64,000 bases of DNA from a bacterium (GTDB lineage: Bacteria; Cyanobacteriota; Vampirovibrionia; Vampirovibrionales; Vampirovibrionaceae). Shown in pieces: positions 1,008-24,338 of this stretch (its first letter is position 1; every line of letters starts with the position of its first letter). The stretch is taken from assembly GCA_030429585.1 (NCBI GenBank), contig JAUIEU010000001.1:62001-126000 (forward strand), read 5' to 3'. The notes beneath the pieces are model-generated. The model did no database searches. It was not told where the DNA came from and saw nothing but the letters and a program-made list of their open reading frames with translations. The position numbers and the translations under genes are program-made.

Positions 1008-1873
1008 GTATGATTTTCTCTAAGCCTGTACAGAAGCTACTTGCCGTTAGCTTATTACTTATTTTAACTGCTTTTAGTGTGGCTGATGCCAAGTGCACGG
1101 TATTGGATGAAATTAAGTGCCACTTAAAAGCCCAAGATAATATTGAGTATATTCCACAGAAGGTGATACCGGTAAAAGGCAGTAAAAAAGGCCGATACCA
1201 GCTTTGGTACAACGATACCATTATGCAAGAGATGGTAGACCTGTTTAAAAAACTACCCAAAGAAGAATACCCTGCCTATTTAGCATGGGTGGAAGAAAAC
1301 TTATACGACTTGCCCTCGCCGTATTTGTACAACGCCGTATTTGTAGCTTATTTGTTGGGGGAAGAACAAACTGCTAAAGAACTACTATATTGGTATGGTC
1401 GTATCCAGTTTTATGATGGGGAACGCTGTAAAGGAGAGAGATTTAAGGCTAAATCATCTGATTCTGACGACCCTTACTCATGGTATCACTCTCGTGCAAA
1501 ACAAGCCTCTGGTCATATGAAAGGACTGATAAAGGGAGCTTATAAAGATAAAGTTTCATCAAGAGAACTTTATAAATTAGATACTAACCTCTTTCCGGAT
1601 GCCTTTTTCCACAAAACTCTTCAAGCAATGAAAGCATTGACAGAAACCCCTCCTAAGCACAACCCGATTTGGGCCTGTAGTTATCCGCCTCTTACTAAAA
1701 AAGATTGGTTGGTAATAAAAAAAGCACCGCAACCAGTAGCTATTAAAAACTGGATTTCTCCACAAAACGAATGGGGTAGAGATATTGAGCATTGTTATGA
1801 ATCCCTTGTATGGATTCTAAAATTTAATAAAAAACTGCCACCTAACTGGAAAACTGAGGAGAGTGCACAATGA
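1004..1873 (+). CDS. Secreted protein of unknown function, paralogue 2
   Basis: A 289-residue duplicate of the preceding protein. It has its own signal peptide (SLLLILTAF, likely cleavage after ADA) and the same mature start KCTVLDEIKC. The ends are strongly conserved between copies (EEYPAYLAW, AVFVAYLLGEEQ, YWYGRI; then PPLTKKDWLV and NWISPQ). The middle, after GERC and up to about NPIWAC, has diverged apart from DPYSWYHSRA. Ribosome binding is provided by GAGGAG inside the previous gene. Its stop overlaps the start of the giant RTX gene by ATGA, with the same CACAATGAG junction seen at its own start. Two coupled copies before one giant exported protein suggest a helper, chaperone, partner or protective role, but nothing in the sequence fixes which. 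Confidence 0.8.
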   Translation: MSMIFSKPVQKLLAVSLLLILTAFSVADAKCTVLDEIKCHLKAQDNIEYIPQKVIPVKGSKKGRYQLWYNDTIMQEMVDLFKKLPKEEYPAYLAWVEENLYDLPSPYLYNAVFVAYLLGEEQTAKELLYWYGRIQFYDGERCKGERFKAKSSDSDDPYSWYHSRAKQASGHMKGLIKGAYKDKVSSRELYKLDTNLFPDAFFHKTLQAMKALTETPPKHNPIWACSYPPLTKKDWLVIKKAPQPVAIKNWISPQNEWGRDIEHCYESLVWILKFNKKLPPNWKTEESAQ

Positions 1874-10800: not shown

Positions 10801-13800
10801 AGCCTCAGTGGGTCAGGTACTGGAAATATTGAACGGATTGTATTTGAAAATCACAGTGATGTGGATTTTGATGAAATCATGAAACTGATCTACCGAGGTA
10901 CGGAAAATGCCGATACCATGGTGGGTGGCGTGAACGATGATTACCTGGACGGTGTGGCCGGGAATGACATCTTAAAAGGGAATGCCGGTGACGATATTCT
11001 TGTCGGTGGTGACGGCGACGACACACTTGAAGGTGGCGCAGATGATGACCTCCTCCTTGGTGGTGCCGGTAATGATGCGCTCCAAGGTGGCGACGGTGAT
11101 GATACCTATTACATAGAAGTCGGCGGTGGTTTTGACACCATCACCGATACCCAAGGCAATAACACATTAGAGTTGAGCTCATTAGAAGGTGGGGTAACGG
11201 TAGACTTAGCGAATAATGCGTTCGTCTTTGACGAACTTCCCGAAGACACCACCCAATCTTTGGTTCACTTTGATGGTGCCAATGGCAGTCAAGATATTGT
11301 GGATAAATTTGGTAATGAGTATCTAATATTTGGCAATGCCCAAATTGACGATACCAATCCATGGAAAACCGGTGAGAAGCATTTTGAATTGGCTTCCAAT
11401 GGGGATTTCTTCCGCTCCGATGTGGGGCCAAGTGGTGATGAATGGACCATTCGTTTTAGAAAACGTTTTGATTCCATGAGTGGATACCAAAGTGTTTTAA
11501 GCGCTGGTAAGGACTATAGTTTTAACATTGGTTTAAACGGCAGTAAATTGTATTTGGTTCTGGGCTCTAATGGTAGTACCTGGAATATTGTAAATACGAA
11601 CAATAGTGTGACCATTAAAAACGACTTTGTGGTGGACCAGTGGTATGAGTTTGAATTTTCTTACTCTTCTACGGATGGGTACCGTTTGTTCGTCGATGGC
11701 GACTTGGATTATAGCTTGTCGAACACGACGGCTATTTATGATCCAGACTTTTTCCAGATTGGTCGTTATATTCGAAGTTCAGCACCGTATTTTTCGACGG
11801 GTGCGGTTGCTGATATTTACTTTACTAATAATGAGGTGCTCCATACCAGTAGCTTTACCCCACTGTCCAATGCATACATTACCGATGGCGTGACGTGGAA
11901 TAGTGGTGCTATTGCGAATGTGACGGGTACCGATTATGCCGATACACTCATTGGCGATAGTGCCGCCAATGAGCTAAATGGTCTGGATGGGAACGATACC
12001 CTAGACGGTAATGACGGTGATGATACGCTGGGTGGTGGTCTCGGTGATGACACCTTGGACGGTGGGGCTGGCGCGGATACCCTGGAAGGGCATGGCGGCG
12101 ACGACACCTTAACGGGTGGTGCTGGTGATGACAGCCTGGATGGTGGCTCTGGTAATGATACCTATGTCTTTGAGTCTGGCTTTGGTAGCGATACGATTGA
12201 AGCCAGTGATGGGCAAGATACGATTGATGTGAGTTATCTCACGGCGAATACCACCATTGATTTAAGCTCCCAATCCGTCACCTTAGGCAGCGATGACATC
12301 ACCTGGACAGATAGCGCGGCTGTGGAAGGGGTGATTTCCGGTTCAGGTGATGACACCATTACGGGTGATGCAGGTAACAATATTTTAGATGGTGGTACTG
12401 GTGACGATAGCCTGTCGGGTGGTGCCGGTGATGATACCTATGTGGTAAATGGGATGTTTGGCACCGATACCATTGCTGAAACATCGGGTTTGGATACCTT
12501 AGATCTATCTAGCTTCACTCAGGATATTATTCTCGACTTAGGTACGGCAACTGAATATGATGATGGCGCAGGTAATGAGATTTCCTGGTCCTCTGGCGAT
12601 TTGGAAGGCCTGTTAACGGGTAGTGGCAATGACACGATTACCGGTACGTCTGGGAATAACATCCTTGGTGGCGGTATGGGGGATGATATCCTCAATGGTG
12701 GTGACGGGGATGACACTTATGTGTTTGTGCCTAATATTGGTACTGAAACCATTAATGACAGTAGCGGTAATGACACCTTAGATTTTAGCCGAATAAGCAC
12801 TAGCTTAACGGTGGATCTGAACAGTACCAGTTTTAACTACATCAATACCGCTAATTCTACAGATGAGTCTCTCCTTCGTTTTAACGAGGTTGTGGGCAGT
12901 TCAGATGTAATTGATGAATTTGGCAATACCTGGACAACCGGTGGTAGCCCAGAAATTGGTAGTACCGATCCTTGGGTCACCGGCCAAAAGCACATGGATT
13001 TGGATAGTGGCGATTACTTTAAGTCGGATGTGGGTCCGAGTGGCGATAACTGGACCATTCGCTTTAGACGACGTTTTGATAGTACCGGTGGTATCCAAAG
13101 TGTTATTAGTGGTGGTATTGATTACAGCTTTAACCTGGGCTTTAGAAGCAACGGTACTCTTTATATCGTACTCTCATCCAATGGCAGTACGTGGAACCTG
13201 GCTAATACTAATATTAAGAGCGGGTTTGTGGCGGACCAGTGGTATGAATTTGAAATGTCGTATTCTGCAGCGAATGGCTACAAAGTCTTTGTAGATGGCG
13301 CCTTAGAATACAGCCTGACCAATACCGCCAAAATTCTAGACCCTCAGTTTGTACAGATTGGTCGGTACATTCGTCCAGCCAATCCGTATTGGGCACCGGG
13401 TGCCGTGGCGGATGTGTATCTCACCAATAATGAGGTGCTTCATGAGGCTAGCTTTACCCCACTCTCGACACCATACAGTACGGATTCGATTACCTGGGCG
13501 AGTAATGCCATTGAAAATGTGATTGCCGGTGCAGGGGATGACACCCTCATTAGTAATGCATCCAATAATGCCTTTGAAGGTGGTGCCGGTGATGATACCT
13601 ATGTCTTTGAAGAAGACTTTGGGCTGGATACCGTATTCGATACCTCTGGTAATGATACCTTTGATTTTAGTGCCTTTGGCACCAATCTTAATATTGATTT
13701 GAATGCCACCAGCTTTGAAGAAAGCGCGGGTAATGTGGTCACCTGGAATGCGGGTGCCATTGAGAATGTGTATGGTGGGTCTGCTCAAGATGTCTTAGTT

Positions 13801-15792
13801 GGCGATACCTCTAATAACATCCTTACGGGTCATCATCTCTATGGTAACGACGGTGATGATACCCTCTTTGGGTCCACGTCTGATGACCGCTTAGAAGGCG
13901 GCAAAGATGATGACTTGCTCTATGGCGGCCAAGGGGATGACACCTATGTCTATGCACCTGGTGATGGGGTAGATGTCATTGACGATAGTGATGGTCAAAA
14001 TATTCTGGATTTAAGTGGGTTTAATCAGGATATGGTAATCAACCTGACGACTGATACATCCTTTGAAGAAAATATAGATAATTCTATTTCATGGGGTTTA
14101 GGTGATATCTCAGGCATTATTACCGGGACCGGTAATCACCATATTATTGGGGATGATACAGATAACCTGCTGCAAGGTGGGACCGGGAACGATACCTTGG
14201 AAGGTAAGCTCGGTGACGATACCTACCGGATGGATGAGGCCTTTGGCTCTGATGCCATTGTGGACACCGGTGGTTCGGATACGATCGATTTCAGCTTATT
14301 CTCTACCAACGTGACGGTGAATCTTGCCGATAATGAGTATAGTGATGCTAATAACAACGCGTTAGTTTGGACCGCCGATGCCATTGAGAATGTGACCACC
14401 GGTCAAGGTAATGATACGTTGTCGGGCAACGCTGGTAATAACCTGCTTAAAGGCGGGTATGGGAATGATACCTATCTGCTTGCTGAAGGTTTTGGTGAAG
14501 ATACCATTACGGATATTGGTGGCTCTGATACCATTGATGCCAGTGGCCTGTCTCAAGGTGTGGAGATTGATCTCAGCGAGAATCAATATATGCGTTATCT
14601 CACTTATACCCCAAGTACGGATCACGCCTTAGTCCGTTTTGATGGTACAGACGGTAGTTCAGCGATTGTGGATGAGTTTGGCAATACTTGGACAACGCAT
14701 GTAACGCCAGAAATTGGGAGTACCAACCCTTGGACTACGGGTCAAAAACACATGGAATTGGATAGTGGTGACTTCTTCCGCTCGGATATAGGACCGAGTG
14801 GCGATGAGTGGACCATTCGATTTAGAAAACGCTTTGACCATATGAGCGGTTATCAGAGTGTGCTGAGTACTGGTAGCGATTACAGCTTCAATATTGGCCT
14901 CACTGGCAGTAGCTTGTACCTCGTTATGGGTTCTAATGGTAGTAGTTGGAACATTGTGAATACATTAGGGAATACCACCATTAAAACGGACTTTGTAGCT
15001 GATCAATGGTATGAATTTGAGATGTCGTATTCATCAACGGATGGTTACCGCCTCTTTGTAGATGGTCAGGAAGAATACACCTTAAGCAATACCACAGCCA
15101 TCTATAACCCTCAGTTTTTCCAGTTTGGCAGGTATATTCGGACATCTAGTCCATATTTCTCTCCTGGTGCCATTGCTGATATCTACTTTACCAATGATGA
15201 AGTCTTGCATTCGGAAAACTTTACTCCGAATAATTCCCCGTATGATACAGATACATTGTTCTGGGATACGGATACTATTGAGAATCTGACGGGTAGTGCT
15301 CACAACGATACGCTGAGAGGGAACTCGGATGCCAATATACTAAATGGTGGCGATGGCAATGATTCGCTTGACGGTCAAACGGGTAACGATACCCTCATTG
15401 GCGGTGACGGTGATGATAGTTACCACTTTGCTATTAATGATGGTGTGGATACGATTACTGAATCTGGTGGTTCTGATAGCATCTTCTTGGATGCCTCACT
15501 TACTGATGATGATATTGCTCTGTTTATGGATGGCGACAACCTACAGATTGGTCATAAGCTGAATGGAACCGACTTAATCACAATTAATAGCTTTGATGTG
15601 TCCACAGATAATCAGATTGAGCGAATTGAATTGAGTTCGGGCGAGTATTTGACTAATACTGATATTAACCAAGTGATCCAGGATATTGCCACTTATGCCA
15701 GCAATAACAGTATTGATCTCACAGATATTAGTGTGGTGAAGAATGAATCAGCTCTCATGCAAATCGTTACCAACGCCTGGAACGTGGCATAA
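1870..15792 (+). CDS. Giant RTX/LamG repeat protein, 4640 residues
   Basis: A very large acidic protein with no N-terminal signal peptide. Residues 1-650 are unrecognised. About 657-707 is a Pro/Gly-rich linker with a short hydrophobic stretch (ALFVSAVLG). About 715-877 is a calcium-binding block of EF-hand-like loops (IDLDGDGK, MDHNSNGIID, DANEDGVTD) typical of RTX exoproteins. From about 1335 on there are some twenty clusters of GGxGxDxLx nonapeptides. Most are followed by a serralysin-like stretch ending in IENVIGG. Five concanavalin A/LamG-like domains are inserted (about 1101-1307, 1734-1951, 3123-3336, 3657-3867, 4246-4457). The C-terminus (about 4500-4640) resembles the haemolysin-related domain that precedes a type I secretion signal. 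By family knowledge such proteins leave through a type I secretion system, fold on binding external calcium and act as adhesins or surface-layer components. No type I transporter genes are in the window. The start overlaps the previous stop (ATGA). Confidence 0.88.
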   Translation: MSCDLNAYIDYNNLTDKQKFAADNIQFNNLQASVDVSYKISRLHYQVFKGGLDELKTPGDNGITLKDDFEAGIQALLNSGGATFAEFYDNFSGKETIDNDAFATLASNVEQLKKTGFSYLEYHGDTSLSLSMNTFVKADPITGKNITITAVDGTNGNNSYDTWVNEWILLNGLHAFDTFNRDRFKEVKDYYIKLTEDYNIEAQAHTYHSQAAIHLLNDAVPQDSDSYIGFGFDPLGANHLIDNANRMGASLNTTMPNIASFTTESGIVGPASRTVGNTAYYIKHAAGQRPERLDWGGRHSVEYYDTDGINTTYGTSFQPGATISEIFQNEHVLPECFRNSILSRTAQIGQTLNAVPEVWGRILKLPDYLKRVAAKIAKREKDDGTFEIVATNDNGDEVKVDEQVRGKIVVEGDNPNFRNEIYQYLIDHGAELLEGNGVNKVEEVDGSGNAINTSTLLSTSASDAIKDNLGEDIEPGVSENQPDKVIADGKDVADKIAQRGTELDNQYGNPSNHDTSCVGKGFLTSAAIETARILSLTGGIDTTLLDNAVFTQVSNVYIDYSLPGEPGNQDYIRATETKRNAVGDIIEKDFRAFLPKTSQYNIFRSQVNNSNAAANRAVDQYAALIRDSLGCHAEEFQQEVETPSTSVPSTRFTGYVPRPGYSFPGNPGSSGTPGDSGGSSLFGRILGGAALFVSAVLGQPSSGGGGGLFVDAYSPLVIDLDGDGKIETIGRNESPVYFDAEGNGLKVKTGWAAADDGMLVMDHNSNGIIDDVDEHFGGQERLGFDHLSNFDKDSNNNSDGVIDSNDVQFNNIKIWQDANEDGVTDAGELQSLAFHNIASINLTATDVNQTLADGNILLQQSTFTRTDSSTGNISDIGFTYNPTETFDTGTYEIDLDTADLPWLRGSGHTSDLLRIASGNDDLKAVIREVAGSESAQALYDNIDELLFAWTGANTIGEEALQGLVSKRKVHMIEQFTGVTAPTEINEFQAWYFESAFVQLKDKFYLDVLAQIPAGDGYNLDYDFLGNTVLLREDANLYDTIIDNLVDSQNNHGAFVLAKVFNTIGLFDADEYATKVTERGYGQSILDHLSGEALLYTNSDLSSRNNFAVWLLDGSEEASFQDALGNTWERSGDQTITNTNSWKTDEYVVDLSGTDSHIKTTDTSPSGDAWTLRWRQRFDNLSGRQTLVSGTEWHTFSIVHGENNKLEIFLSSEGNEWDLDYFGPGSKTNWQADQWYDFEFSYSAEDGYRLFVDGEEDYYLDDTTALHQAEGIQFGENGNTAAPLRLDGAVSDILFDNTRVLHTENFTPSTEPVIAYQASKNIYTSDASDVVNGTNHTDIIHAGDGDDFIIGGLGSDNLFGEAGDDEYVINLGDGHDVIQDNDGSNRLILGHGIDLDDLTFERLYSNQDATDDLLITINTTGQSITLQDHFVSSGSDKTISEMVFQTEQTLPDTSTSHVVAITVAEDAALYRYVDETVITGTTGDDMLVVDQAATIDGDQGNDTIQSSDDDHTFVFNPGDGTDTITDAGGNDTLDLSGFSDDLDVDLTQTSMTESTDSVTWNTGAIENVIGGSGDDTLTGNDGDNLLQGNGGADTLTGGDGDDTYRFANGFGTDVITDSAGNDTLDASEFTAGVTVDLSNNSFADATDTVSWNSGAIENVIGSAFDDTLSGNTDDNIIDGGAGDDTLAGGAGDDTYVVNAGNDSITDSAGSDTLDVSGLSQGVTVDLSSTSMSYIESGLDSTQSLLHFDGAVGSQTLTDVYGNGWTAHGDAELDATDPWKTGEQHVTIDGNGDYIRSSVGPSGDAWTIRWRQRFDSVSGIRSVLSAGQDYSFNIGLRNNGALYIVLSSNGSTWNIDNADIKTGMVTDQWYDFEFSYSVTNGYQVFVDGVQEYHLSSITTPVHDPQFFQMGRYIRQADPYWASGAIADVYFTNNEELHTANFTPLTDSFAITNTITWNTDAIDNVIGTDADDALTGNTGNNRLVGGGGTNTLSGGAGGDTYAFDALTGDNTITDTQGSNTLDFADRQTGVSIDLNTTSALIDSQNLTWSSNGIANVVGSSGDDTLTGNTQNNTLDGGAGDDTYIIQASFGSDVIADASGFDTVDLSAITSGITIDLSQTGWSDGSGNSLTWNISELESLITGDGNDTVTAADIDSTLTTGAGNDTLTGGTGDDNLIGGTGDDTYEGFTTTSGFDQISDEAGTDTLDLTGFNTTDFSWSLLDTNADGNIDSLLMQGDDDHNLLIENYFDDSSDTIGTAGQGSGVIESMVFDNDADVTFSEVVGFVSPTASTSGDDVMDGTAFVETLSGSDGNDTLNSSGGDDTLDGGAGDDTYVIHDFFGFDTIADSSGTDTLDFSNHSGDIVVELAQEYFSSGLFNYLSWEDVTIENLTTGDGDDALAGTTGNNTLDGGAGDDLYHFKDSFGTDTIVDSAGNDTLDFSSLTGNLSIDLSQTSFSDGNGNTVSWTGSVIENAIGGTGNDTLTSSTDDNILAGYEGDDTYVLTSSFGEDTIIDTDGINRLDISHFGGGVTIDMSGTAWTESAGNTITWGDSLLQEVVTGIGNDTLISGTTDNTLIGGLGNDSYSGFGDGQGADVISDAGGTDTVTVNADVLDGRWAAADSNNDGNVDNLFIEWDNGSLTVEDYFDNTAADASGSGQGSGFVETLILNDDADVTFSEVQNLANTIFGTDGDDTLTGGSTNEVFLGLSGDDTVTGNGGDDTFSDTNNSGSDDYDGGLGADIGDYSGHGFQVIYNTHNDSVSIQDDVDTLTSVETLQAGSSAQDQINGSLNSAALTVNLDAGTIVGGDGDVTTLTGFEDVIGSTYGDTLTGDANNNWLSGLEGDDTISGGDGDDYLIGAFGQDTLSGDAGNDALDGGADDDTLSGGAGDDILLAGEGDDLLQGGADNDVYTAFGVSTGDDTISDTSGDEDILDLSNLSTDVVTVEAIDTTSSGFVDQLKLSWVDSNSDTQSVVINDYFDDTDAEASLSGSGTGNIERIVFENHSDVDFDEIMKLIYRGTENADTMVGGVNDDYLDGVAGNDILKGNAGDDILVGGDGDDTLEGGADDDLLLGGAGNDALQGGDGDDTYYIEVGGGFDTITDTQGNNTLELSSLEGGVTVDLANNAFVFDELPEDTTQSLVHFDGANGSQDIVDKFGNEYLIFGNAQIDDTNPWKTGEKHFELASNGDFFRSDVGPSGDEWTIRFRKRFDSMSGYQSVLSAGKDYSFNIGLNGSKLYLVLGSNGSTWNIVNTNNSVTIKNDFVVDQWYEFEFSYSSTDGYRLFVDGDLDYSLSNTTAIYDPDFFQIGRYIRSSAPYFSTGAVADIYFTNNEVLHTSSFTPLSNAYITDGVTWNSGAIANVTGTDYADTLIGDSAANELNGLDGNDTLDGNDGDDTLGGGLGDDTLDGGAGADTLEGHGGDDTLTGGAGDDSLDGGSGNDTYVFESGFGSDTIEASDGQDTIDVSYLTANTTIDLSSQSVTLGSDDITWTDSAAVEGVISGSGDDTITGDAGNNILDGGTGDDSLSGGAGDDTYVVNGMFGTDTIAETSGLDTLDLSSFTQDIILDLGTATEYDDGAGNEISWSSGDLEGLLTGSGNDTITGTSGNNILGGGMGDDILNGGDGDDTYVFVPNIGTETINDSSGNDTLDFSRISTSLTVDLNSTSFNYINTANSTDESLLRFNEVVGSSDVIDEFGNTWTTGGSPEIGSTDPWVTGQKHMDLDSGDYFKSDVGPSGDNWTIRFRRRFDSTGGIQSVISGGIDYSFNLGFRSNGTLYIVLSSNGSTWNLANTNIKSGFVADQWYEFEMSYSAANGYKVFVDGALEYSLTNTAKILDPQFVQIGRYIRPANPYWAPGAVADVYLTNNEVLHEASFTPLSTPYSTDSITWASNAIENVIAGAGDDTLISNASNNAFEGGAGDDTYVFEEDFGLDTVFDTSGNDTFDFSAFGTNLNIDLNATSFEESAGNVVTWNAGAIENVYGGSAQDVLVGDTSNNILTGHHLYGNDGDDTLFGSTSDDRLEGGKDDDLLYGGQGDDTYVYAPGDGVDVIDDSDGQNILDLSGFNQDMVINLTTDTSFEENIDNSISWGLGDISGIITGTGNHHIIGDDTDNLLQGGTGNDTLEGKLGDDTYRMDEAFGSDAIVDTGGSDTIDFSLFSTNVTVNLADNEYSDANNNALVWTADAIENVTTGQGNDTLSGNAGNNLLKGGYGNDTYLLAEGFGEDTITDIGGSDTIDASGLSQGVEIDLSENQYMRYLTYTPSTDHALVRFDGTDGSSAIVDEFGNTWTTHVTPEIGSTNPWTTGQKHMELDSGDFFRSDIGPSGDEWTIRFRKRFDHMSGYQSVLSTGSDYSFNIGLTGSSLYLVMGSNGSSWNIVNTLGNTTIKTDFVADQWYEFEMSYSSTDGYRLFVDGQEEYTLSNTTAIYNPQFFQFGRYIRTSSPYFSPGAIADIYFTNDEVLHSENFTPNNSPYDTDTLFWDTDTIENLTGSAHNDTLRGNSDANILNGGDGNDSLDGQTGNDTLIGGDGDDSYHFAINDGVDTITESGGSDSIFLDASLTDDDIALFMDGDNLQIGHKLNGTDLITINSFDVSTDNQIERIELSSGEYLTNTDINQVIQDIATYASNNSIDLTDISVVKNESALMQIVTNAWNVA
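5170..15240 (+). repeat. Five LamG-like copies of two alternating kinds
   Basis: Five related copies of about 210 codons lie at roughly 5170-5790, 7069-7720, 11236-11875, 12840-13470 and 14605-15240. All share PSGDxW, the QWY(D/E)FE core and VFVDG or LFVDG. Copies 2 and 4 agree with each other (LYIVLSSNGSTWN, PYWA, ADVY). Copies 3 and 5 agree with each other (FRKRFD, SGYQSVLS, LSNTTAIY, PYFS, ADIYFTN). Copy 1 is the most diverged and lacks the GRYIR block. The B-A-B-A order of copies 2-5 suggests duplication of a two-domain unit. Confidence 0.8.
5880..15420 (+). repeat. RTX nonapeptide clusters
   Basis: Runs of GGxGDDTL-type calcium-binding nonapeptides recur across this span, for example around 5890-5960, 6575-6680, 8290-8410, 9910-10060, 10320-10570, 10905-11110, 11935-12170, 12350-12445, 13785-13945 and 15295-15420. 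Between them sits a repeated stretch of about 70 residues with DTLDFS, VDLS, VTWN and IENVIGG. The DNA is internally repetitive, so copy number is prone to recombination or assembly error. Confidence 0.85.
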
Positions 15793-15806: not shown

Positions 15807-16409
15807 CTAGTTGGTAACGGATGACTCTTCACAGTGAGTGTATTGTCGATTAATACTAGCAAGATAATATTTTCTAAGCACCTGTGGTGAAACCTCAACA
15901 CCAGAGGATTGCCGAAGCCTCATCAATCGCCTATAAACTGCAGAGCGATCGATTGGCCTTCCATTTTGATTAACAAGAAGATACTTACTATCCGTATTGG
16001 GCCGGAACATTAAATAAGCTTGAAATGCATGAATGACAGATGGTGTTAGGTTGACGCAACGGTTTCTCGTAAATGGCATAATAAGAACACCTTCTACCAG
16101 ATCAATATGCTCGAAGGTCAGTTCACGCATCTCGGTGATTAGCAAGCCCACTTGGCTTAATAGTTCAACCAGAACCGTTTCTAATCTCGTCGTACAAGCT
16201 AATAAAAGTTGCTCAATATCTATTTCACTCAGTTCTTTTTGCTTTATTGGCGTAGAGTTCCTAAATCTACGGTATCCTTTCACCAGAGGTGCCTCTGTGT
16301 TTAGCCTGTGTACGATGATGGCAGAATAATGCTTTCTCAAGACGAGTATTTTGTAGAAGACCTTCCCATAGTGATACAAGGTCATGCACCATTCACAAAG
16401 TGTTTTCAA
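15807..16409 (-). pseudogene. Tyrosine recombinase-like protein lacking catalytic residues
   Basis: A 200-residue protein that aligns by eye with the catalytic half of the complete tyrosine recombinase just upstream of it. The N-terminal SAM-like DNA-binding domain is missing. The first catalytic arginine (GVRNAEL in the neighbour) is replaced: here the segment reads VGLLITEMREL. The HGLRR box has become SPQVLRK, and the GH box and terminal tyrosine are absent. It should therefore be unable to cut or join DNA. The TTG start at 16409 has a good AAAGGAG nine bases upstream, so it may still be translated. It could be a decaying gene, or a dead paralogue kept as a DNA-binding or regulatory partner. 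Same strand, 69 bases downstream of the complete recombinase. Confidence 0.6.
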
Positions 16410-16478
16410 TCCATGATGCTCCTTTATCTTTACGGAACAAATGCATTCATTACTCTCAATAGAACTTAAGTCAATAGG

Positions 16479-17438
16479 CTAATCCCAACCTTGCATGGCA
16501 TTAATGACGGCTTGTTCATCTGACATCAGGTAGCCTTGGGTGGTTCGGATATCTGTATGACCAAGTGCCTTCTGGATCAGATGAAGAGGTCGCCCAGCTT
16601 CTGCATGGCGGGTAGCAAAAGTTCGTCGTAACCCATGAGGGGTAATCTCAACCCCAGCCACCTTAGAGAGTTTGAGAAACCGTCGTGTAATATCAGCAGT
16701 TTTAATCCGGCTGCCCCGCCGATTAATAAACACCGCTTGGCTATCTCTTGGTGCCTTAGTGGCTCTAATGGTGAGATAGTTTTGAAGTGACTGTTTTAAT
16801 TGAGCAGATAAACCCACCCTTCTTGTTTTTCGCCCTTTACCCAAGCGAATCGTAATAACGTTCTGCACGAAATCCACATCATCTAGGTCCAAATTACAGA
16901 GTTCCGCATTGCGTACCCCGGTATGAAGAATAGTATCCACAATGGCATGATCCAGGTGACGGCTATAATCCGCTTCATATCGCTTCCTCTGGATGGCATC
17001 TTTCAAGGATGTAATCTGGTCTAGGTTCTTTAAAACCGTCTTTTTGGCAGGTACCACACGTTTTGGCCGTAATCGCCGAAGGCTGTCGATAACAGTAGGT
17101 TCGAGTTGTCCCATGCTTACCAAAAACTTAGCAAAACTGATGAGGCTATACAGCATGTTATGGCGGTTAGAAAAGCTTTCTACCGAATACATGCTCAATA
17201 CCCGGTATACATTCGGAGTATGGAACACATCATCTAGTGTTAACGCTTTGGGTGGGTCATCCTCCCAGCCATTACGGGTATAGAGAATAAACCGTCGCTT
17301 AAAGGTACGAACCGTGGTGGGGGCATACGGCTGCATCCCCTGCTTCATGTCCAATACCCACAGTTCAAAGTAGGCGCGTAGATCCTTATCCCACCATTCC
17401 GGGGGTATCATCCGCTTACGCTCGTAAGTTCGTGGCAC
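16479..17438 (-). CDS. Tyrosine recombinase/integrase (XerC/D type)
   Basis: Site-specific recombinase that cuts and rejoins DNA through a 3'-phosphotyrosine link. All signature residues are visible: R in HTGVRNAEL, K in LGKGRKTRR, H and R in HGLRRTFATRH, H in LGHTDIRTT and the nucleophile Y in QGYLM. The N-terminal half (FELWVLDMKQG, then an RRFILYTRNGW stretch) is the expected helical core-binding domain. I place the start at GTG 17438 because AGGAG lies seven bases before it. An in-frame GTG at 17504 would add 22 residues but has no visible ribosome site. This gives 319 residues, normal for the family. Beside accessory genes and a degenerate paralogue, it may be the integrase of an element inserted here, or a Xer-like house recombinase. 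Confidence 0.85.
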   Translation of the reverse strand: MPRTYERKRMIPPEWWDKDLRAYFELWVLDMKQGMQPYAPTTVRTFKRRFILYTRNGWEDDPPKALTLDDVFHTPNVYRVLSMYSVESFSNRHNMLYSLISFAKFLVSMGQLEPTVIDSLRRLRPKRVVPAKKTVLKNLDQITSLKDAIQRKRYEADYSRHLDHAIVDTILHTGVRNAELCNLDLDDVDFVQNVITIRLGKGRKTRRVGLSAQLKQSLQNYLTIRATKAPRDSQAVFINRRGSRIKTADITRRFLKLSKVAGVEITPHGLRRTFATRHAEAGRPLHLIQKALGHTDIRTTQGYLMSDEQAVINAMQGWD

Positions 17439-17527
17439 GGTCTGTCTCCTGGTATCAATGATGACAGCACATTCATTGCTCCGAAGAATAGTTATAGCAA
17501 CCACTAAAATGGTGTAGTAGCTGTTGT

Positions 17528-17587: not shown

Positions 17588-17848
17588 ATGAAACGTTTAT
17601 TACTCAAGAGCTTATTACTTGGGGTTCTCCTGATATTGCCTTATGCATCAGCAGAAGATGGCATTATTCCAGTGGATGCTGAGCGTAGAGGTTGCTGTTC
17701 CCATCATAGTGGTGTGTGTGGTTGTTCTGGTGGGCGTGCCGCTTGCTGCGATGGCACACTGAGCCCTAGCTGTGGATGTAACCTAACAGAGCAGTGCGGA
17801 CAGAATACAAAAGAAGAGCAAGATGAAGAGGCTATTCCTCAGAATTAA
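17588..17848 (+). CDS. Small secreted cysteine-rich protein
   Basis: An 86-residue protein with a signal peptide (KRLLLKSLLLGVLLILPYASA), a cysteine-rich middle and an acidic tail (EEQDEE). The middle has nine cysteines in the pattern CCSHHSGVCGC, then CCDGTLSPSCGC. This CCSxHxGVCGC...CCDGTxSPxC pattern recurs in short exported proteins of many bacteria; no function is established to my knowledge. The cysteine and histidine spacing suggests a metal site or a disulfide knot. GAGGAG precedes the ATG. The 3' end overlaps the convergent gene at 17832 by 17 bases. Confidence 0.75.
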   Translation: MKRLLLKSLLLGVLLILPYASAEDGIIPVDAERRGCCSHHSGVCGCSGGRAACCDGTLSPSCGCNLTEQCGQNTKEEQDEEAIPQN

Positions 17849-18428
17849 TGTCTGAGTCCTTATTCTCTGTTTCTATTGCTTCTTCATTATCATCATTTAC
17901 AGTGATAACTTGTGGGGCTGTCGTAAAGGTATCAAAAACCTGCCCACCCTGAATGCTGGCAGGTTTTCCACTCATTGCAAAGGCGGCAGCAATAGGGATA
18001 ACGCCTAAGCCAAATAATACTAATAATGGCAAGCCAATAATAAACAAGGTAATTGCGGTACCTCGCTTACCGTTCCCTTTTGCCTTGTAGCTAAAATTAA
18101 CTGGAATAGGTTTATTGCCGTTCACAGGCTTAATGGTTCCACCGGATAGTTCGAGCTTTCCTGCTTTGCCAAGTGTTCCTGAGTCTCTTACTTTAGAAAT
18201 TGCCAGTTCAACGGGTGCCCCTTTTTTGAAGACTACCATATTATCTACGATAACATCTCTTTGCACTTGAGCTTGAATGGCGAGCTGGTCTTCCAACACA
18301 TCACTGCTTACCGTGTTTGGTAAAACGATGGGAACACGTGTGCCAGCATTAACATGAACTTCAGCAGCATATGCAGGCGTGATGAAAGCAATGAGTGTGA
18401 GTAATGCACCAAACAGGGCTTTGAACAT
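17832..18428 (-). CDS. Secreted, membrane-anchored protein of unknown family (copy 1)
   Basis: 198 residues. A signal peptide (ends AYA) is followed by a beta-rich domain with the motif GTRVPIVLPNTVSS, then VVFKKGAPVELAISKV, then a Gly-rich hydrophobic segment (LFIIGLPLLVLFGLGVI), GKPASIQGGQVFDTFTTAP and an acidic tail. It is paralogous to the gene immediately upstream, with matching motif order. The pattern of an exported domain asking for a fixed value (VVFKKG-type turns) followed by one membrane segment resembles small envelope proteins that set up a barrel-like fold, but I do not recognise the family. GGAGG lies before the ATG. The two copies are 39 bases apart and probably co-transcribed. 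Confidence 0.7.
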   Translation of the reverse strand: MFKALFGALLTLIAFITPAYAAEVHVNAGTRVPIVLPNTVSSDVLEDQLAIQAQVQRDVIVDNMVVFKKGAPVELAISKVRDSGTLGKAGKLELSGGTIKPVNGNKPIPVNFSYKAKGNGKRGTAITLFIIGLPLLVLFGLGVIPIAAAFAMSGKPASIQGGQVFDTFTTAPQVITVNDDNEEAIETENKDSDINSEE

Positions 18429-18467
18429 GGCATTTTTCCTCCAATTAAATATAAGCGTAGCAAGGGC

Positions 18468-19103
18468 TTAGTTAGGAATTACAATGGTTTTTGGTGCTGT
18501 GATCATGGCATCAAATTGAGCCCCACCTTGCAACATGGCAGGCTTACCATCAATCCATATACCGAATGGCACAAGAATCAATAAAATACCAAATATTGTA
18601 GCAACCACAGCCCATCCCCTTTTGCTGACTCCCTCACGGTTGATGGACAGATTTAATTGGTAATCATTACCGTAAACGTCGTAAATTCGGCCCCCATTTA
18701 CTTCTAAAACACCTTTACCGCCATGTCCTCGGCCTTTTTTAGCTTTAGAAACGTACAAGACGCCTTCACTACCTTTCTTAAAGATCGTATGACCTTCAAC
18801 TTTGACATCTTGACTGACAGATATAGATACCATATCGCCTTCATTGAGGTTGTTTGAGCTTACCGTGTTGTAGACAACGATAGGAACCCTTGTCCCTGTA
18901 TTAATCGTTAACTCTTTCTTCGCAGGTTCTTCGGAAATGTCATTACTTTGTGTCTCATCTTCAGAAGACTGAGAGTATGCATCTACAAAAGAGAACCTTT
19001 TTTGTGGGGGTTGTTCAGCTACTTCCGCATAGGCAGGAGATAGCTGCATTGGGAAGATTAGACCTACTAAAATAGAAAGTAATAAAACAATTGTTCGGAG
19101 CAT
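18468..19103 (-). CDS. Secreted, membrane-anchored protein of unknown family (copy 2)
   Basis: 211 residues with a signal peptide (LLLSILVGLIFPMQLSPAYA), a polar acidic linker (SSEDETQSNDISEEPAKK), then the same domain as the next gene: NTGTRVPIVVYNTVSS, HTIFKKGSEGVLYVSKA, a hydrophobic segment (VATIFGILLILVPFGIWI) and GKPAMLQGGAQFDAMITAPK. The conserved block GKPAxxQGGxxFDxxxTAP after the membrane segment in both copies marks them as one family. The linker is unique to this copy. The pair lies between a recombinase and the Hxs locus, so it is probably part of the accessory region. Confidence 0.7.
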   Translation of the reverse strand: MLRTIVLLLSILVGLIFPMQLSPAYAEVAEQPPQKRFSFVDAYSQSSEDETQSNDISEEPAKKELTINTGTRVPIVVYNTVSSNNLNEGDMVSISVSQDVKVEGHTIFKKGSEGVLYVSKAKKGRGHGGKGVLEVNGGRIYDVYGNDYQLNLSINREGVSKRGWAVVATIFGILLILVPFGIWIDGKPAMLQGGAQFDAMITAPKTIVIPN

Positions 19104-19231: not shown

Positions 19232-19966
19232 CTATTCGGCAAGGACAGAGAGCCAAGTGGCTAAGTTCATTTTTTGGCACCCATCTTTCATCGCTTTATT
19301 GGGATAACTTTTTTCCTTGTTCCAATAAATTAAAGGGTTTGACCAACCCCAGCTTAAATCTGGATCACCTACTAATAAGGCAGATGGCCTGGAGTATTTC
19401 TCATCTATTTCAACATCTCGTTCCCATATACCACTGTGTACATGGTCTTCTGACTGAGGTTCCTCATAAGAACTGGCAGAAAGAAAGTTTTCAGCACCTT
19501 TTTTAAGGCTATACATATCGCCACGAGGATTCAACGATGCCAACTTGCTTTCAAGTACTTTGCCATAAATTAGTTTGCTGGATGTATATAATTCCCCGTA
19601 AGAGTTAAACGCTTCACCAATACGCATCAAATACGCCAAACTTTGACATTTGGTATGCTTAAGCCCACTAAACCCAGCAACCCAGTATCCTTTTTGCCAA
19701 TCTTCGGGAGTTTTATAGCTCCGCATTTGATGTTTACATGTACATAGTGTAAATACACCACCGTCTACATTAGGCGCTGAACCATACTGAACAAAGGTGC
19801 CATTTTCCAGATCAATTGTGTCTACAATATAGCTATAAACTTCTTCACCCTGGTACTCTTTTAAGAAATTCTGTAATTTAGTTATACTTAGATTGTCGTT
19901 TGGCCAATCCGAGTATAATACACTATTATTGTGGCATTTCTCTTTACTCATAGGAGCACACGGCAT
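19232..19966 (-). CDS. Protein with possible Nmad2-like domain
   Basis: 244 residues, soluble, no signal peptide. The order of motifs (YSYIVDTID, then FTLCTCKHQMR, GYWVAGFSG, LAYLMRIGEAF, and late LLVGDPDLSWGW) recalls the nucleotide-modification-associated domain Nmad2, in which a Cys-Lys-x-x-(Ile)-Arg segment and a GDW-like strand are typical. That family was described computationally in phage and mobile-element contexts linked to DNA base modification. The match here is from memory of the motif pattern and needs a profile search. It stands alone on the minus strand, divergent from the Hxs genes, with AAGG seven bases before the ATG. Confidence 0.5.
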   Translation of the reverse strand: MPCAPMSKEKCHNNSVLYSDWPNDNLSITKLQNFLKEYQGEEVYSYIVDTIDLENGTFVQYGSAPNVDGGVFTLCTCKHQMRSYKTPEDWQKGYWVAGFSGLKHTKCQSLAYLMRIGEAFNSYGELYTSSKLIYGKVLESKLASLNPRGDMYSLKKGAENFLSASSYEEPQSEDHVHSGIWERDVEIDEKYSRPSALLVGDPDLSWGWSNPLIYWNKEKSYPNKAMKDGCQKMNLATWLSVLAE

Positions 19967-20153: not shown

Positions 20154-20438
20154 ATGAAAAAACATCGCTTTCTAGCACCATTAACATTAGCTGTGGCTGC
20201 TTTAATCTCTACTGTTTCTGGTCATGACAAGGCGGCAATAGCGCAAGCAGCTATGATGCCAACTCCTAAAGTAATGCCTCATCAGGTGGCACCAACCATT
20301 GATGATGGCCGTATACTACATGACTTTGTATTAGTGCGTAACGAAAATAACGAAATGATGGCTTATCACCGGTCACATTACTCACACCGCTCGCACTCTA
20401 GCCACTCTAGCCACCGTTCGCATTATTCAGGGTATTAA
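20154..20438 (+). CDS. hxsA: His-Xaa-Ser repeat peptide HxsA
   Basis: A 94-residue precursor. The N-terminus (KKHRFLAPLTLAVAALIST) looks like a signal peptide. The middle is an unremarkable linker. The C-terminus carries seven consecutive H-x-S triplets with x = R, Y, R, S, S, R, Y, and ends in GY. Such histidine-serine repeats define HxsA, the presumed substrate of the Hxs radical SAM enzymes; the modification and final function are unknown. The start at 20154 has GAGGAAA upstream; an earlier ATG at 20146 reads into a stop after two codons. It is followed after four bases by hxsD and then hxsB and hxsC on the same strand, giving the complete set of named components. The 187-base upstream gap is AT-rich and divergent to the Nmad2-like gene, so it should hold the operon promoter. 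Confidence 0.9.
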   Translation: MKKHRFLAPLTLAVAALISTVSGHDKAAIAQAAMMPTPKVMPHQVAPTIDDGRILHDFVLVRNENNEMMAYHRSHYSHRSHSSHSSHRSHYSGY

Positions 20439-20442
20439 ATTG

Positions 20443-20775
20443 ATGGCAGATTCAATTTTCGAGAGTGGTAAGGGTATCCAAGCCACAAATTTTGTCATTG
20501 AGACCAGTATTTATTCGCTTGAAGTGATTAAAAAAGCAGCCTATTGCTTTTTAGATCAGGCAACCTTTGAATTTAAAGCTGTGGGTGAAAAAGTAGAATG
20601 TCAGGTTAGCTTTAATCAACCCTTAGCTGAAAAAGAAGTGATAGATTTTAAAAAAGCCTTTGATACAGAGCTTTTGGATCAAGATTTACGCCAAACGGTA
20701 TCCAACGAAACAGAATCGATGAGAAATGCGGTATTGGCGTATGCATTTTCTCGGACAGGACTGCAAAGTGAGTAA
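20443..20775 (+). CDS. hxsD: His-Xaa-Ser system protein HxsD
   Basis: A 110-residue soluble protein between hxsA and hxsB. It matches the HxsD type by length, position and pattern: a strand-helix start (TSIYSLEVIKKAAYCFLD), alternating strands (FEFKAVGEKVECQVSF), then helices with NETESMRNAVLAYAF. Its small alpha/beta shape and place beside radical SAM genes suggest, by analogy with other RiPP systems, a peptide-binding or recognition partner; this is inference. I chose ATG 20443 over an in-frame TTG three bases earlier. Its last eight bases overlap the hxsB start, consistent with coupled translation. Confidence 0.85.
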   Translation: MADSIFESGKGIQATNFVIETSIYSLEVIKKAAYCFLDQATFEFKAVGEKVECQVSFNQPLAEKEVIDFKKAFDTELLDQDLRQTVSNETESMRNAVLAYAFSRTGLQSE

Positions 20776-22228
20776 GTTTAAAACGCTAGACACATATAAT
20801 GAAAGCTTGAATGGTGGGTATAGGCTAGCCCCGTTAAATTTTACAACCCTAGATGGTGATGATTATGTCATCAGCAACATGGCTGGAGAATATCTCGTTG
20901 TTTCAAAGCCTAACCTGCATGCCTTTATTAAGCATAAACTAAGCCCAGCTGAACCAATCTACAATGAACTTAAATCCAAACATTTTTTAATCGACTCAGA
21001 TTCGAATGTAGCCATGGATTTAATGGCTTTAAAAGTTCGAACAAAAATGAGCCGATTAGCCGACTTCACAGGCCTGCATATCTTTGTTGTGACATTACGC
21101 TGTGAGCATTCCTGTCCTTATTGCCAAGTCAGTCGGCAAAGTGAAGACCGTGCAGCCTATGATATGAGTAAAGAAACGGCTGACAAAGGCTTAGAGCTTG
21201 TTTTTAAATCGCCCTCACCAGCTATAAAGATTGAATTTCAGGGTGGTGAGTCCATGCTGAATTTTGATATCGTCAAATATATTGTGGAAGAGGCTGAAAA
21301 GATAAATGTTATTGAGCGGCGTGACTTACAGTTCGTTATTGCCACTAACTTAGCTGTATTGACTGATGAAATTTTAGAGTATTGTCGTGACCATAGAATA
21401 CACATTTCATCGTCACTGGATGGGCCAAAAGAGCTTCACAATAAAAACCGTCCAAGGCCAGGTGGTGATAGTTATGAGCGTACCATTCAAGGAATAAAAA
21501 GGGTTCGAGATAAGCTTGGCAGGGACCAAGTTAGTGCCCTGATGACAACAACCGAAGCGAGCCTTGAGCAACCTATTGAAATTATCAATGAATACCTAAA
21601 GCAAGGATTTGATGGTATTTTCCTTCGACCATTATCCCCTTATGGCTTTGCCATTAAAACAAAGTCTTACAAGGCCTATGATGTGGATGAATGGCTCGAT
21701 TTCTACTTTAAGGGTCTAGAATACATCATTGAACTCAATCGAAGTGGGACGTTCTTTGTTGAGCAATATGCCGCCATTATTTTGAACAAAATGTTAACCC
21801 CGTTTGGAACAGGGTATGTAGATTTAACCAGTCCTGCTGGCATTGGCATAGGCGCACTGGTCTACAACTATAATGGTGACGTATATGCCTCAGATGAAAG
21901 CCGTATGTTGGCTGAAATGGGCGATAAACACTTCAGGCTCGGTAATGTTCATGAGAATAACTGGGAAGAGATGCTAACGTCAGAACAGCTTTTAGGGCCG
22001 CTTGAAGAATCGTTTGCTGGCTCGGCCCCGATGTGTAGTGATTGTGCCTTTGAGCCTTATTGTGGTTCAGAACCTGTCTTTCACCATGCAACACAAGGCG
22101 ATTATCTAGGGTTAAAACCAACCTCATCATTCTGTCGCAGAAATATGGCTATTTTTAGACGACTAATTAAATTGATGGAAACAGATAGTGAGGTTAAATC
22201 CATATTTATGAAGTGGGTGAGGATTTAG
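20768..22228 (+). CDS. hxsB: Radical SAM maturase HxsB
   Basis: About 486 residues. The radical SAM cluster motif is CEHSCPYC (CxxxCxxC), and the SAM-binding GGES appears as FQGGESML. The C-terminal region has the SPASM-like cysteine set (APMCSDCAFEPYCGS, later SSFC) that usually holds extra Fe-S clusters in peptide-modifying enzymes. An N-terminal extension of about 100 residues before the barrel is the likely peptide-handling part. I place the start at GTG 20768, with CAGGA seven bases upstream and an 8-base overlap with hxsD. A longer in-frame ATG at 20726 lies inside hxsD and has no ribosome site. Expected to modify the H-x-S repeats of HxsA together with HxsC; the chemistry is not established. 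Confidence 0.9.
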   Translation: MSKFKTLDTYNESLNGGYRLAPLNFTTLDGDDYVISNMAGEYLVVSKPNLHAFIKHKLSPAEPIYNELKSKHFLIDSDSNVAMDLMALKVRTKMSRLADFTGLHIFVVTLRCEHSCPYCQVSRQSEDRAAYDMSKETADKGLELVFKSPSPAIKIEFQGGESMLNFDIVKYIVEEAEKINVIERRDLQFVIATNLAVLTDEILEYCRDHRIHISSSLDGPKELHNKNRPRPGGDSYERTIQGIKRVRDKLGRDQVSALMTTTEASLEQPIEIINEYLKQGFDGIFLRPLSPYGFAIKTKSYKAYDVDEWLDFYFKGLEYIIELNRSGTFFVEQYAAIILNKMLTPFGTGYVDLTSPAGIGIGALVYNYNGDVYASDESRMLAEMGDKHFRLGNVHENNWEEMLTSEQLLGPLEESFAGSAPMCSDCAFEPYCGSEPVFHHATQGDYLGLKPTSSFCRRNMAIFRRLIKLMETDSEVKSIFMKWVRI

Positions 22229-22229
22229 C

Positions 22230-23405
22230 ATGCTGACTCTAGGAAGCTCAAACATAACGGTTAAGAATGTCGCTGAAGGCACAGGCCCGTTTGTCATTCG
22301 ATTATGTGACGATGCCTCATTACCATTACCCTTGAGAGAATCTGAGGCTTATATTATTCAGCCTAATCAGCCGATTCCTGAGGGCTTTGCGCTATACATA
22401 TTCCTTGAAGAGGAATCAGGCAGGCTCGATGAAATAAGTCACAAAGCCCCAGTAATGGTACTGCCCAATGCATACGATTATTTAGCGTCGGGTGACGTGA
22501 TTCGGTTGAATTTGAAGAACAATTCAATACGAGTTTTATACCGTCGAAATTCTAACCACAATAGCTTTTTAACGACTGAGCGGTGCAACAACTATTGTTT
22601 AATGTGTTCTCAGCCACCTAAAACAGCGGATGATTCATGGATTGTGGATGAAATACTCGCCACTATTCCCCTAATTTCGCGCGAGACACAGGAAATAGGT
22701 TTTACTGGTGGTGAACCAACCATCTTAGGTGACGATTTCATAAAAATTCTTGAAACGTGCAAGAACTGGTTACCAAACACGTCAATTCATATTTTATCTA
22801 ATGGTCGTAACTTTGCTAACCCAGAGTTTGCCAGCAAATATGCTGCTATTAACCACCATGACATGATGGTTGGCATACCGCTCTATTCAGACATCTCAAA
22901 TATCCATGATTATGTTGTACAAGCAGATGGTGCTTATGATGAGACAATTAGAGGCATCCTCAACTTAAAACGACTGGGGCAAAAAGTAGAAATACGGGTT
23001 GTTATCCATAAGCAAACCTATGAACGGTTACCCCAGCTAGCTGAATTTCTTGCTCGAAACCTCTTATTCGTTGATCACATAGCTCTGATGGGGCTTGAGA
23101 TGATGGGCTTTACCAAGGCTAACCTTGAAGAGCTTTGGATTGATCCCGCCGATTACCAGCTTCAGCTACAGAAAGCTGTCGATATTCTTGCTAACTACCG
23201 GATGAACGTATCAATCTACAACCACCAACTGTGTTTGCTAGACCGTTCATTATGGCCATTTGCACGGAAGTCCATTTCAGATTGGAAAAATGAATATATG
23301 GATGAATGCACTGGGTGCGGTGAGATGGATGCCTGTGGCGGCTTTTTCTCCTCTGCATTGCTCCGGTATAGCGACCATATCAAACCTATAGGGGCCAACG
23401 CATGA
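22230..23405 (+). CDS. hxsC: Radical SAM protein HxsC
   Basis: 391 residues, starting one base after the hxsB stop. The cluster motif is CNNYCLMC in TTERCNNYCLMCSQPP, followed by FTGGEPT, the SAM-binding GGE motif. The N-terminal 120 residues are not part of the radical SAM fold. A short C-terminal cysteine group (ECTGCGEMDACGG) may hold an auxiliary cluster or zinc. It is the second radical SAM enzyme of the His-Xaa-Ser system; having two such enzymes implies either two sequential modifications of HxsA or a heteromeric enzyme. The stop overlaps the start of the next small gene by ATGA. Confidence 0.9.
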   Translation: MLTLGSSNITVKNVAEGTGPFVIRLCDDASLPLPLRESEAYIIQPNQPIPEGFALYIFLEEESGRLDEISHKAPVMVLPNAYDYLASGDVIRLNLKNNSIRVLYRRNSNHNSFLTTERCNNYCLMCSQPPKTADDSWIVDEILATIPLISRETQEIGFTGGEPTILGDDFIKILETCKNWLPNTSIHILSNGRNFANPEFASKYAAINHHDMMVGIPLYSDISNIHDYVVQADGAYDETIRGILNLKRLGQKVEIRVVIHKQTYERLPQLAEFLARNLLFVDHIALMGLEMMGFTKANLEELWIDPADYQLQLQKAVDILANYRMNVSIYNHQLCLLDRSLWPFARKSISDWKNEYMDECTGCGEMDACGGFFSSALLRYSDHIKPIGANA

Positions 23406-23608
23406 AATTTGGAATGAGAAAACCATCGTTAAAGAAGCGAATTAGCGCGAAAACTTCTGTAAATAGAGCTATAAGAAATGCCCTCGGTTTAAAGGCTCCA
23501 AAAGGCTGGGGATGGCTTACAAACCCTAAAAAAGCGGCTTACAATAGTGTGTATAGCAAAACAACATTCTCTATTGATAGGCTATTAAAAGCTTTGTTTG
23601 GGCTTTAA
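23402..23608 (+). CDS. Small basic protein coupled to hxsC
   Basis: 68 residues, strongly basic (MRKPSLKKRISAKTS start, then GLKAPKGWGWLTNPKKAAYN and VYSKTTFS), with a hydrophobic amphipathic end (DRLLKALFGL). Its ATG overlaps the hxsC stop by four bases, so it is very probably translated with the Hxs operon. I know no function. The segment NPKKAAYNxVYxKTTFS feels like a conserved small family rather than random sequence. It may be a fifth Hxs component or an unrelated passenger. No membrane segment or signal peptide. Confidence 0.65.
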   Translation: MKFGMRKPSLKKRISAKTSVNRAIRNALGLKAPKGWGWLTNPKKAAYNSVYSKTTFSIDRLLKALFGL

Positions 23609-23807: not shown

Positions 23808-24079
23808 TGTAACTCTAAAACAAAGGATACACCTGCGGTAACCCTTAACCCCACCCTTTGGCCAGCTATTTGTTACAGCCTCCTTGGGGTGTTTATATCG
23901 AATACACGCCATTTAATGGTATTGGCAGTACGGCATCCCATATCGTTAATGCGGGTACAAATTACATCATAGGCCAACATCACCAACTGGATGCCAGAAT
24001 TGGTGTGGGGCTAACACGACACTCGCCGGATCTGTTTGTTGGGGTAGGTTATTCTTTTAAAATAGACACCTTACTTTAA
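23808..24079 (+). pseudogene. Remnant of an outer-membrane transporter-like gene
   Basis: The second frame (23858-24079) encodes the last strands of a beta-barrel: WGVYIEYTPF, INAGT-like VNAGTNYIIG, QLDARIGVGL, PDLFVGVGYSF. This is typical of the C-terminus of the 'transporter' family related to the MetA-pathway phenol degradation proteins. The frame just before, with TPAVTLNPTLWP, fits the preceding strand in another register, so a frameshift near 23858 is likely. There is no start and no 5' part; only a small C-terminal piece survives. Confidence 0.5.
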
Positions 24080-24089
24080 TCGAGTAGCT

Positions 24090-24338
24090 TTATATCAGCT
24101 TTTTGGCTTTAAAGTATGTAAAAATGCTAATGGACATTAAAATCATTACCGCCCAAGTCGCTAAATAACCCCATTCCCAATGTAATTCGGGCATATAATC
24201 AAAGTTCATCTCGTAAATGCCTGCAATAAACGTGAGTGGCATAAAGATGGAGGCAAAAACCGTGAGTGTTTGCATGGTTTCATGCATGCGTTGGCTGGTT
24301 TGTCCAAGGTAATGGTTATCCAAGTCTTGAATGACTCC
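24090..24338 (-). pseudogene. 5'-truncated corA (magnesium/cobalt channel) remnant
   Basis: About 80 codons survive, encoding the C-terminal end of a CorA channel: HETMQTLTVFASIFMPLTFIAG, the pore loop region, MPELHWEWGY and the second membrane helix with a basic tail (FKAKKLI). The N-terminal cytoplasmic domain is missing and an in-frame TAA lies just upstream of 24338. The normally invariant GMN pore motif reads EMN (IYEMNF), so ion selection would be altered even if expressed. It sits next to tRNA-Phe and another gene fragment, pointing to rearrangement at this site. Confidence 0.65.

Follow-up and report, generated by a model that had tools for sequence, protein, structure and literature searches.

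His-Xaa-Ser (Hxs) loci encode an orphan radical S-adenosylmethionine (SAM) pathway whose definition, now more than ten years old, rests on sequence. A C-terminal aromatic-x-Ser motif is likewise a feature of the FxsA/FxsB (Phe-x-Ser) system, used here as a lead only, and we know of no tandem repeats in FxsA. Here we describe an Hxs locus of four genes, hxsA, hxsD, hxsB and hxsC, in a 64,000-nucleotide stretch of a bacterial contig (JAUIEU010000001.1, positions 62,001-126,000, forward strand). This whole stretch is termed the window, and all coordinates below refer to it.

Among systems of described chemistry, the triceptides offer a close comparison. Their three-residue cyclophane-forming enzymes (3-CyFE: XncB, OscB/GrrM, MscB, HaaB, YhhB and also ScaB) link an aromatic residue to the residue at i+2 (PMC11002830). 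His and Ser are each documented in such cross-links: the radical SAM enzymes HaaB and ScaB join C2 of His to C-beta of Ala at i,i+2, and MscB joins C4 of Phe to C-beta of Ser (PMC11002830). The hxs genes themselves have been reported in Salmonella Typhi prophage cargo, under the name hxsDBCA (PMC10686908), in a Vibrio parahaemolyticus island (PMC6537148) and in Pseudomonas aeruginosa (PMC8446631).

The window HxsA shares the triceptide-type precursor motif, an aromatic residue with a partner at i+2, seven times over as H-x-S. The maturation machinery differs in several respects. HxsB falls far below the cut-offs of all tested 3-CyFE families (YhhB, 73.5 bits; GrrM/OscB, 53.5 bits) as well as that of FxsB (44.6 bits, cut-off 370), has cysteines for one auxiliary cluster, and comes with two partners, HxsD and another radical SAM enzyme; its substrate consists of several adjoining repeats.

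Identity and integrity of the locus

The locus comprises the following features:

20154..20438, forward strand: hxsA (subtype HxsA2), ATG start, 94 residues, NF038296 match
20367..20429, forward strand: H-x-S core, read from the sequence as HRS HYS HRS HSS HSS HRS HYS, then GY-COOH
20443..20775, forward strand: hxsD, ATG start, 110 residues, TIGR03976 match
20768..22228, forward strand: hxsB, radical SAM maturase, GTG start, 486 residues, TIGR03978 match
22230..23405, forward strand: hxsC, second radical SAM enzyme, ATG start, 391 residues, TIGR03977 match

Family membership was judged by the curated cut-offs of NCBIfam models. HxsD (63 bits, cut-off 50), HxsB (632.7 bits, cut-off 370) and HxsC (419.4 bits, cut-off 267.9) each exceeded that of their own family. 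The repeat protein was filed as HxsA2 because it passed the model of that subtype (NF038296; 60 bits, cut-off 48) and fell below that of HxsA proper (TIGR03979; 40.7 bits, cut-off 121.65). The original prediction, which had named all four Hxs families, thus stands for HxsB, HxsC and HxsD, while its HxsA belongs to the A2 subtype. A Pfam scan returned radical SAM cores only, plus a sub-threshold SPASM match in HxsB. A defence role was discarded as a candidate, as PADLOC gave just weak viperin matches via the shared SAM core.

Positions, order and spacings had also been predicted, and the open reading frame (ORF) coordinates agree with them to the base: 4 bases separate hxsA from hxsD, hxsD and hxsB overlap by 8, and 1 base lies between hxsB and hxsC. 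An in-frame TTG at 20440 is offered by the ORF finder as an alternative hxsD start. All four frames are open, with catalytic cysteines retained and tight overlaps. The locus is an intact HxsA2-type Hxs operon and an ordinary member of a known four-gene bacterial system, all four families being adjacent, in one direction and over their curated cut-offs. What is new is a further intact copy, which had been named correctly apart from the A2 subtype. Its order, A-D-B-C, differs from the D-B-C-A of a Klebsiella plasmid and the hxsDBCA of the S. Typhi prophage cargo, and its precursor is short where HxsA elsewhere is long.

One HxsB scan of a species genome collection yielded 64 further loci (handles beginning with L); counts of 65 include the window. 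The genes occur together, with hxsC beside hxsB in 64 of 65 loci and hxsD in 63 (some misses are contig ends), and an H-x-S ORF adjoins hxsB in nearly all. The 8-base hxsD/hxsB overlap was found again in 23 of 65 scorable relatives, and this recurrence suggests that translation of HxsD and HxsB is coupled. In L060, a Gracilibacteria contig, reading with table 11 breaks hxsB, probably owing to the alternative code of that group (UGA = glycine). L045 and L047, whose bins carry the labels Mycolicibacterium and Planctomycetaceae, have almost identical hxs loci, and contamination of one of the bins is probable.

The precursor and its repeat

HxsA is composed of a basic n-region (MKKHRF), a hydrophobic stretch (LAPLTLAVAALIST), a linker, and the motif DFVLVRNENNEMMAY immediately before the core; it has no Cys. 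The C-terminus reads AY-HRS-HYS-HRS-HSS-HSS-HRS-HYS-GY, so that two residues follow the seven consecutive triplets which had been predicted there. By a rough estimate that assumes 2.2% His and 6.5% Ser, the chance of seven H-x-S triplets at a given position is ~1e-20. The third-position Ser codons (TCA TCA TCG AGC AGC TCG TCA) draw on both serine families, and one base change cannot swap TCN and AGY without leaving serine. Because of these mixed families and the varying X residue (R Y R S S R Y), the array is maintained by selection on its amino acids and is no freshly copied DNA repeat. A codon-pattern search (CAYNNNWSN x3) of the 2.2-Mb genome gave no second array of HxsA length, the other matches being short and near the reversed-pattern control, and the candidate of a second HxsA precursor was dropped.

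The leader and pre-core motif of HxsA are common to relatives, and the window precursor fits the shared pattern as DFVLVRNENNEMMAY-[HxS]7-GY. Comparison of the repeat region across 72 precursors found 3-9 triplets in each, mostly 5 or 6. Position X is mostly S, A, R, Y or G (S 151, A 133, R 43, Y 29, G 25, V 14, H 9, T 6), with C, Q, N, M, K and E rarer and D, F, W, I, L and P never seen. Arrays open at H after Q/Y/G and close at S before S/G. In the 58 short precursors, A occupies position -2 in 42 and G position -6 in 33, a hydrophobic F-V-M/L stretch lies at -14 to -12 before the array, and the chain ends in R (27), Y (18) or F (5). Actinobacterial precursors have ~100 extra residues after the array. 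Spacers split intact triplets in L053, L022 and L023; in L053 (7145-7390), pairs of triplets are parted by one extra Ser (HAS-HHS-S repeated), an arrangement useful for deciding the unit of modification.

A Sec-like N-terminus is common among the precursors, with an [FY][LM]xP motif in 27 of the 58. Behind the hydrophobic stretch, 53 of the 58 have an AXA-like site, against 39.8 expected from shuffles, and this comparison backs the signal-like HxsA N-terminus of the original prediction.

Predicted maturation enzymes

Both radical SAM enzymes retain the predicted CxxxCxxC motif, as CEHSCPYC in HxsB (C112/116/119) and CNNYCLMC in HxsC (C119/123/126). Near-invariant cysteines in 69 HxsB relatives are limited to these three and 423/426/432/456 (C423-x2-C-x5-C-x23-C456), and in 66 HxsC relatives to the motif and 335/360/363/369. 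The number of cysteines suggests that each enzyme has, besides the SAM cluster, the ligands of a single auxiliary one. Among solved sequences, HxsC matches viperin and SkfB cores only.

Three rows from annotated-record loci were left out of the input for structure prediction. The HxsB model (mean predicted local distance difference test (pLDDT) score 85.7) is nearest to the solved folds of CteB (E 5e-18), TigE, anSME, ChlB and SuiB. CteB and TigE are the best matches, TigE at ~17% identity over the alignment; the CteB alignment, made with the whole protein, is nearly full length (464-483 columns). HxsB thus resembles maturases of peptides or proteins, with CteB, TigE and anSME as leader-binding examples; bond type is left undecided by this fold because the matched maturases span several chemistries. 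Before the SAM barrel, the HxsB model has strands at 18-46 and helices at 47-54, 63-70 and 82-99, a putative leader-recognition (RRE-like) domain. For HxsD, AlphaFold2 predicts a ferredoxin-like fold, beta-alpha-beta-beta followed by a single long C-terminal helix (mean pLDDT 91.3); the model had no match in the PDB at E <= 0.001, the nearest folds being ferredoxin-like and Pcc1. This predicted fold rules out HxsD as a winged-helix recognition element, and the HxsB N-terminus is the better candidate for recognition.

Accessory genes in other lineages

A class I methyltransferase family occurs near hxs in nine loci from several phyla (L017, L024, L029, L038, L039, L041, L055, L063, L080). Its start lies inside the hxsC stop in L017 and L063 (4-base overlap), and in L055 the gene stands beside a second hxsA. 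In four beta- and alphaproteobacterial records (L019, L026, L027 and L028; Polynucleobacter, SAR116 and PS1-clade), a CCP_MauG di-haem peroxidase and two small membrane-like ORFs follow hxsC, at about 10500-12600. Because of these neighbours, we suggest that the Hxs product undergoes further modification and, in certain lineages, acts outside the cytoplasm near c-type haem. The window locus has neither gene, and the earlier description of it as complete is right as far as the four core genes go, not for these partners. The single query tried for a methyltransferase partner gave no match in the window's own genome, a weak negative.

Proposed chemistry and alternatives

We tentatively favour, at somewhat less than even confidence, a pathway in which His-to-Ser C-beta cross-links are installed on the H-x-S triplets of a protein that is then exported. 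HxsA2 would be made with its Sec-like N-terminus, and this, together with the conserved F-V-hydrophobic-x-K/R...G...A-[YQG] stretch, may be read by the maturases. HxsB would bind the precursor via its N-terminal recognition-like domain, with HxsD as a co-translated partner, and HxsB and HxsC, each with a radical SAM [4Fe-4S] cluster, would act in turn on the triplets. The expected product is a run of three-residue cyclophanes in which an imidazole carbon of His(i) is bonded to the beta-carbon of Ser(i+2), with a further change, such as epimerisation or a second bond, made by the second radical SAM enzyme. One cross-link per triplet is favoured because H-x-S joins both halves of the precedents, arrays start at H and end at S, and triplets may be spaced. 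Cross-linking would precede Sec export, which would leave a stiff, imidazole-rich tail outside the cytoplasm, where it might plausibly serve to bind metal or haem.

Several observations weigh against this proposal. The two radical SAM enzymes are always kept, and a single cyclophane reaction fails to explain the whole pathway. HxsB scores lower against the cyclophane-forming families than against PapB, CcpM, nif11-type and SCIFF maturases, and the four cysteines of its SPASM region fit one auxiliary cluster only. The signal-peptide excess is modest and was scored by a home-made rule. Finally, as the original prediction held, no structure or role of an Hxs product has been reported: the open literature, searched without subscription papers, gave passing mentions only.

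Thioether chemistry of the sactipeptide or ranthipeptide type is excluded for this locus because the window HxsA has no Cys, even though the best-matching CteB forms Cys thioethers. Oxidation of the Ser of each triplet to formylglycine by an anSME-like HxsB, with the aldehyde reacting with or beside His and HxsC performing a follow-up step, would accord with the place of anSME among the best HxsB matches by fold (TM-score (TMt) up to 0.81), by PDB profile (62.9 bits) and by family model (81.5 bits), and anSMEs do oxidise Ser or Cys. This route would nonetheless leave the retention of His, as strict as that of Ser, unexplained, and would place an unusual number of free aldehydes in one tail; anSME also carries two auxiliary clusters, where HxsB has cysteines for one. 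We judge it improbable. We regard as no more probable an epimerisation or other backbone change, such as a D-Ser or D-His per triplet, with the tail simply a structured, His-rich metal-binding segment. Epimerases are known among radical SAM enzymes and are able to modify numerous residues, EpeE-type folds are among the structure matches of HxsB, and a His-rich tail suits metal binding; yet EpeE ranks far below CteB and TigE, and two paired enzymes with HxsD would have no obvious need. Slightly less improbable, though still unlikely, is that HxsB and HxsC connect His to Ser through an ether (C-O) or C-N linkage, or link one triplet to the next, in place of forming a C-C cyclophane. A His-His ether made by the P450 SgrB is known (PMC11002830), as are radical SAM ether cross-links by DarE, although the DarE ether joins two Trp (PMC9055067). 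The spaced groups of triplets disfavour any bond that requires an unbroken ladder.

A different kind of explanation holds that the locus is a mobile passenger, intact in sequence yet not expressed or not functional. Its distribution is patchy, with HxsC over cut-off in just 3 of 58 related genomes, the window's own included; integrases lie nearby, and promoters and terminators at the locus show no excess over shuffles. Against this stand the open frames, the full set of catalytic cysteines, the tight overlaps and purifying selection in the repeat codons, and we consider a silent passenger very unlikely. Returning to the cyclophane proposal, its boldest extension is that an exported protein carries a rigid, tandem His-Ser cyclophane ladder, which the methyltransferase or di-haem peroxidase adjusts in certain lineages. 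Such a ladder would be a novel kind of genetically encoded tail for binding metal or haem and not a released peptide; we offer this as a speculation that is rather unlikely.

Spread and genomic neighbourhood

The HxsB tree mixes phyla. The window HxsB pairs with a metagenome-assembled genome labelled Eremiobacterota (71% identity, support 86), and two HxsB copies from the window's own family and class group with Planctomycetota; in both cases bins may be mislabelled. Relatives of hxsB are carried by 332 plasmid records (308 from Klebsiella, with ~33% identity among the matches listed), by Leptospira phage LE1 and by six viral contigs. L085 (CP067827.1) and the 308 Klebsiella records carry a divergent hxsD-B-C-A operon between insertion sequence elements on conjugative plasmids. 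The window copy is itself mobile-looking, the upstream integrase being a hint of mobility only. The features flanking the locus are:

16479..17504, reverse strand: tyrosine recombinase (integrase), PF00589 at 126.7 bits, ~2.6 kb upstream of hxsA
17588-17848, forward strand: small secreted Cys-rich ORF (phmmer against the collected hxs loci)
17832-18428 and 18468-19103, both reverse strand: tandem secreted paralogues (phmmer against the collected hxs loci)
23402..23608, forward strand: orf5, 68 residues, its start overlapping the hxsC stop (ATGA, 4 bases)

L079 has relatives of both the Cys-rich ORF and the paralogue pair (17832-19103) near hxs, and L001 has relatives of the pair alone; the pair is rare in its own genome. 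This suggests a shared neighbourhood of the secreted-ORF group (17588-19103) and hxs.

Among the loci compared, the overlap of orf5 with hxsC is seen in the window only. Orf5 has no Pfam or NCBIfam match, and its PHROG matches are families without assigned function. Its relatives occur on 118 phage and 14 plasmid records, one at an integron cassette position, and include Paenibacillus phage proteins (56% identical; the family is seen in Firmicutes phages) and ORFs on Cupriavidus, Citrobacter and Variovorax plasmids (~70% identical), with blaGES-5 and aac(6')-Ib4 next to the Citrobacter relative in an integron array. In L012 and L082, relatives lie no more than a few kb from hxs; none stands directly behind hxsC among the fetched relatives. 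As a family that stands alone on phages, plasmids and an integron, orf5 was rejected as a conserved fifth Hxs component, and is probably, on the simplest reading, a passenger from a widespread mobile family.

Other features of the region were noted in passing. A single 4640-residue ORF (1870-15792) is rich in calcium-binding-type GGxGxD repeats and has several near-identical inserted domains of ~150 residues. Two tandem tyrosine recombinase ORFs occupy 15807-17504, the shorter one probably truncated. The gene at 19232-19966, divergent from hxsA, has a weak Nmad2 (nucleotide modification associated) match, and short pieces of a Phenol_MetA_deg-type protein and a CorA C-terminus at 23858-24323 look like gene remnants.

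Significance

Hxs relatives span numerous phyla and are carried by clinical plasmids as well as by phages, yet the open literature reports no product. The window locus, with a short Cys-free precursor, seven clean triplets and the four core genes only, provides a compact test case from which the chemistry might be determined directly, and the methyltransferase and MauG-type peroxidase of its relatives are concrete clues to the place and use of the product.

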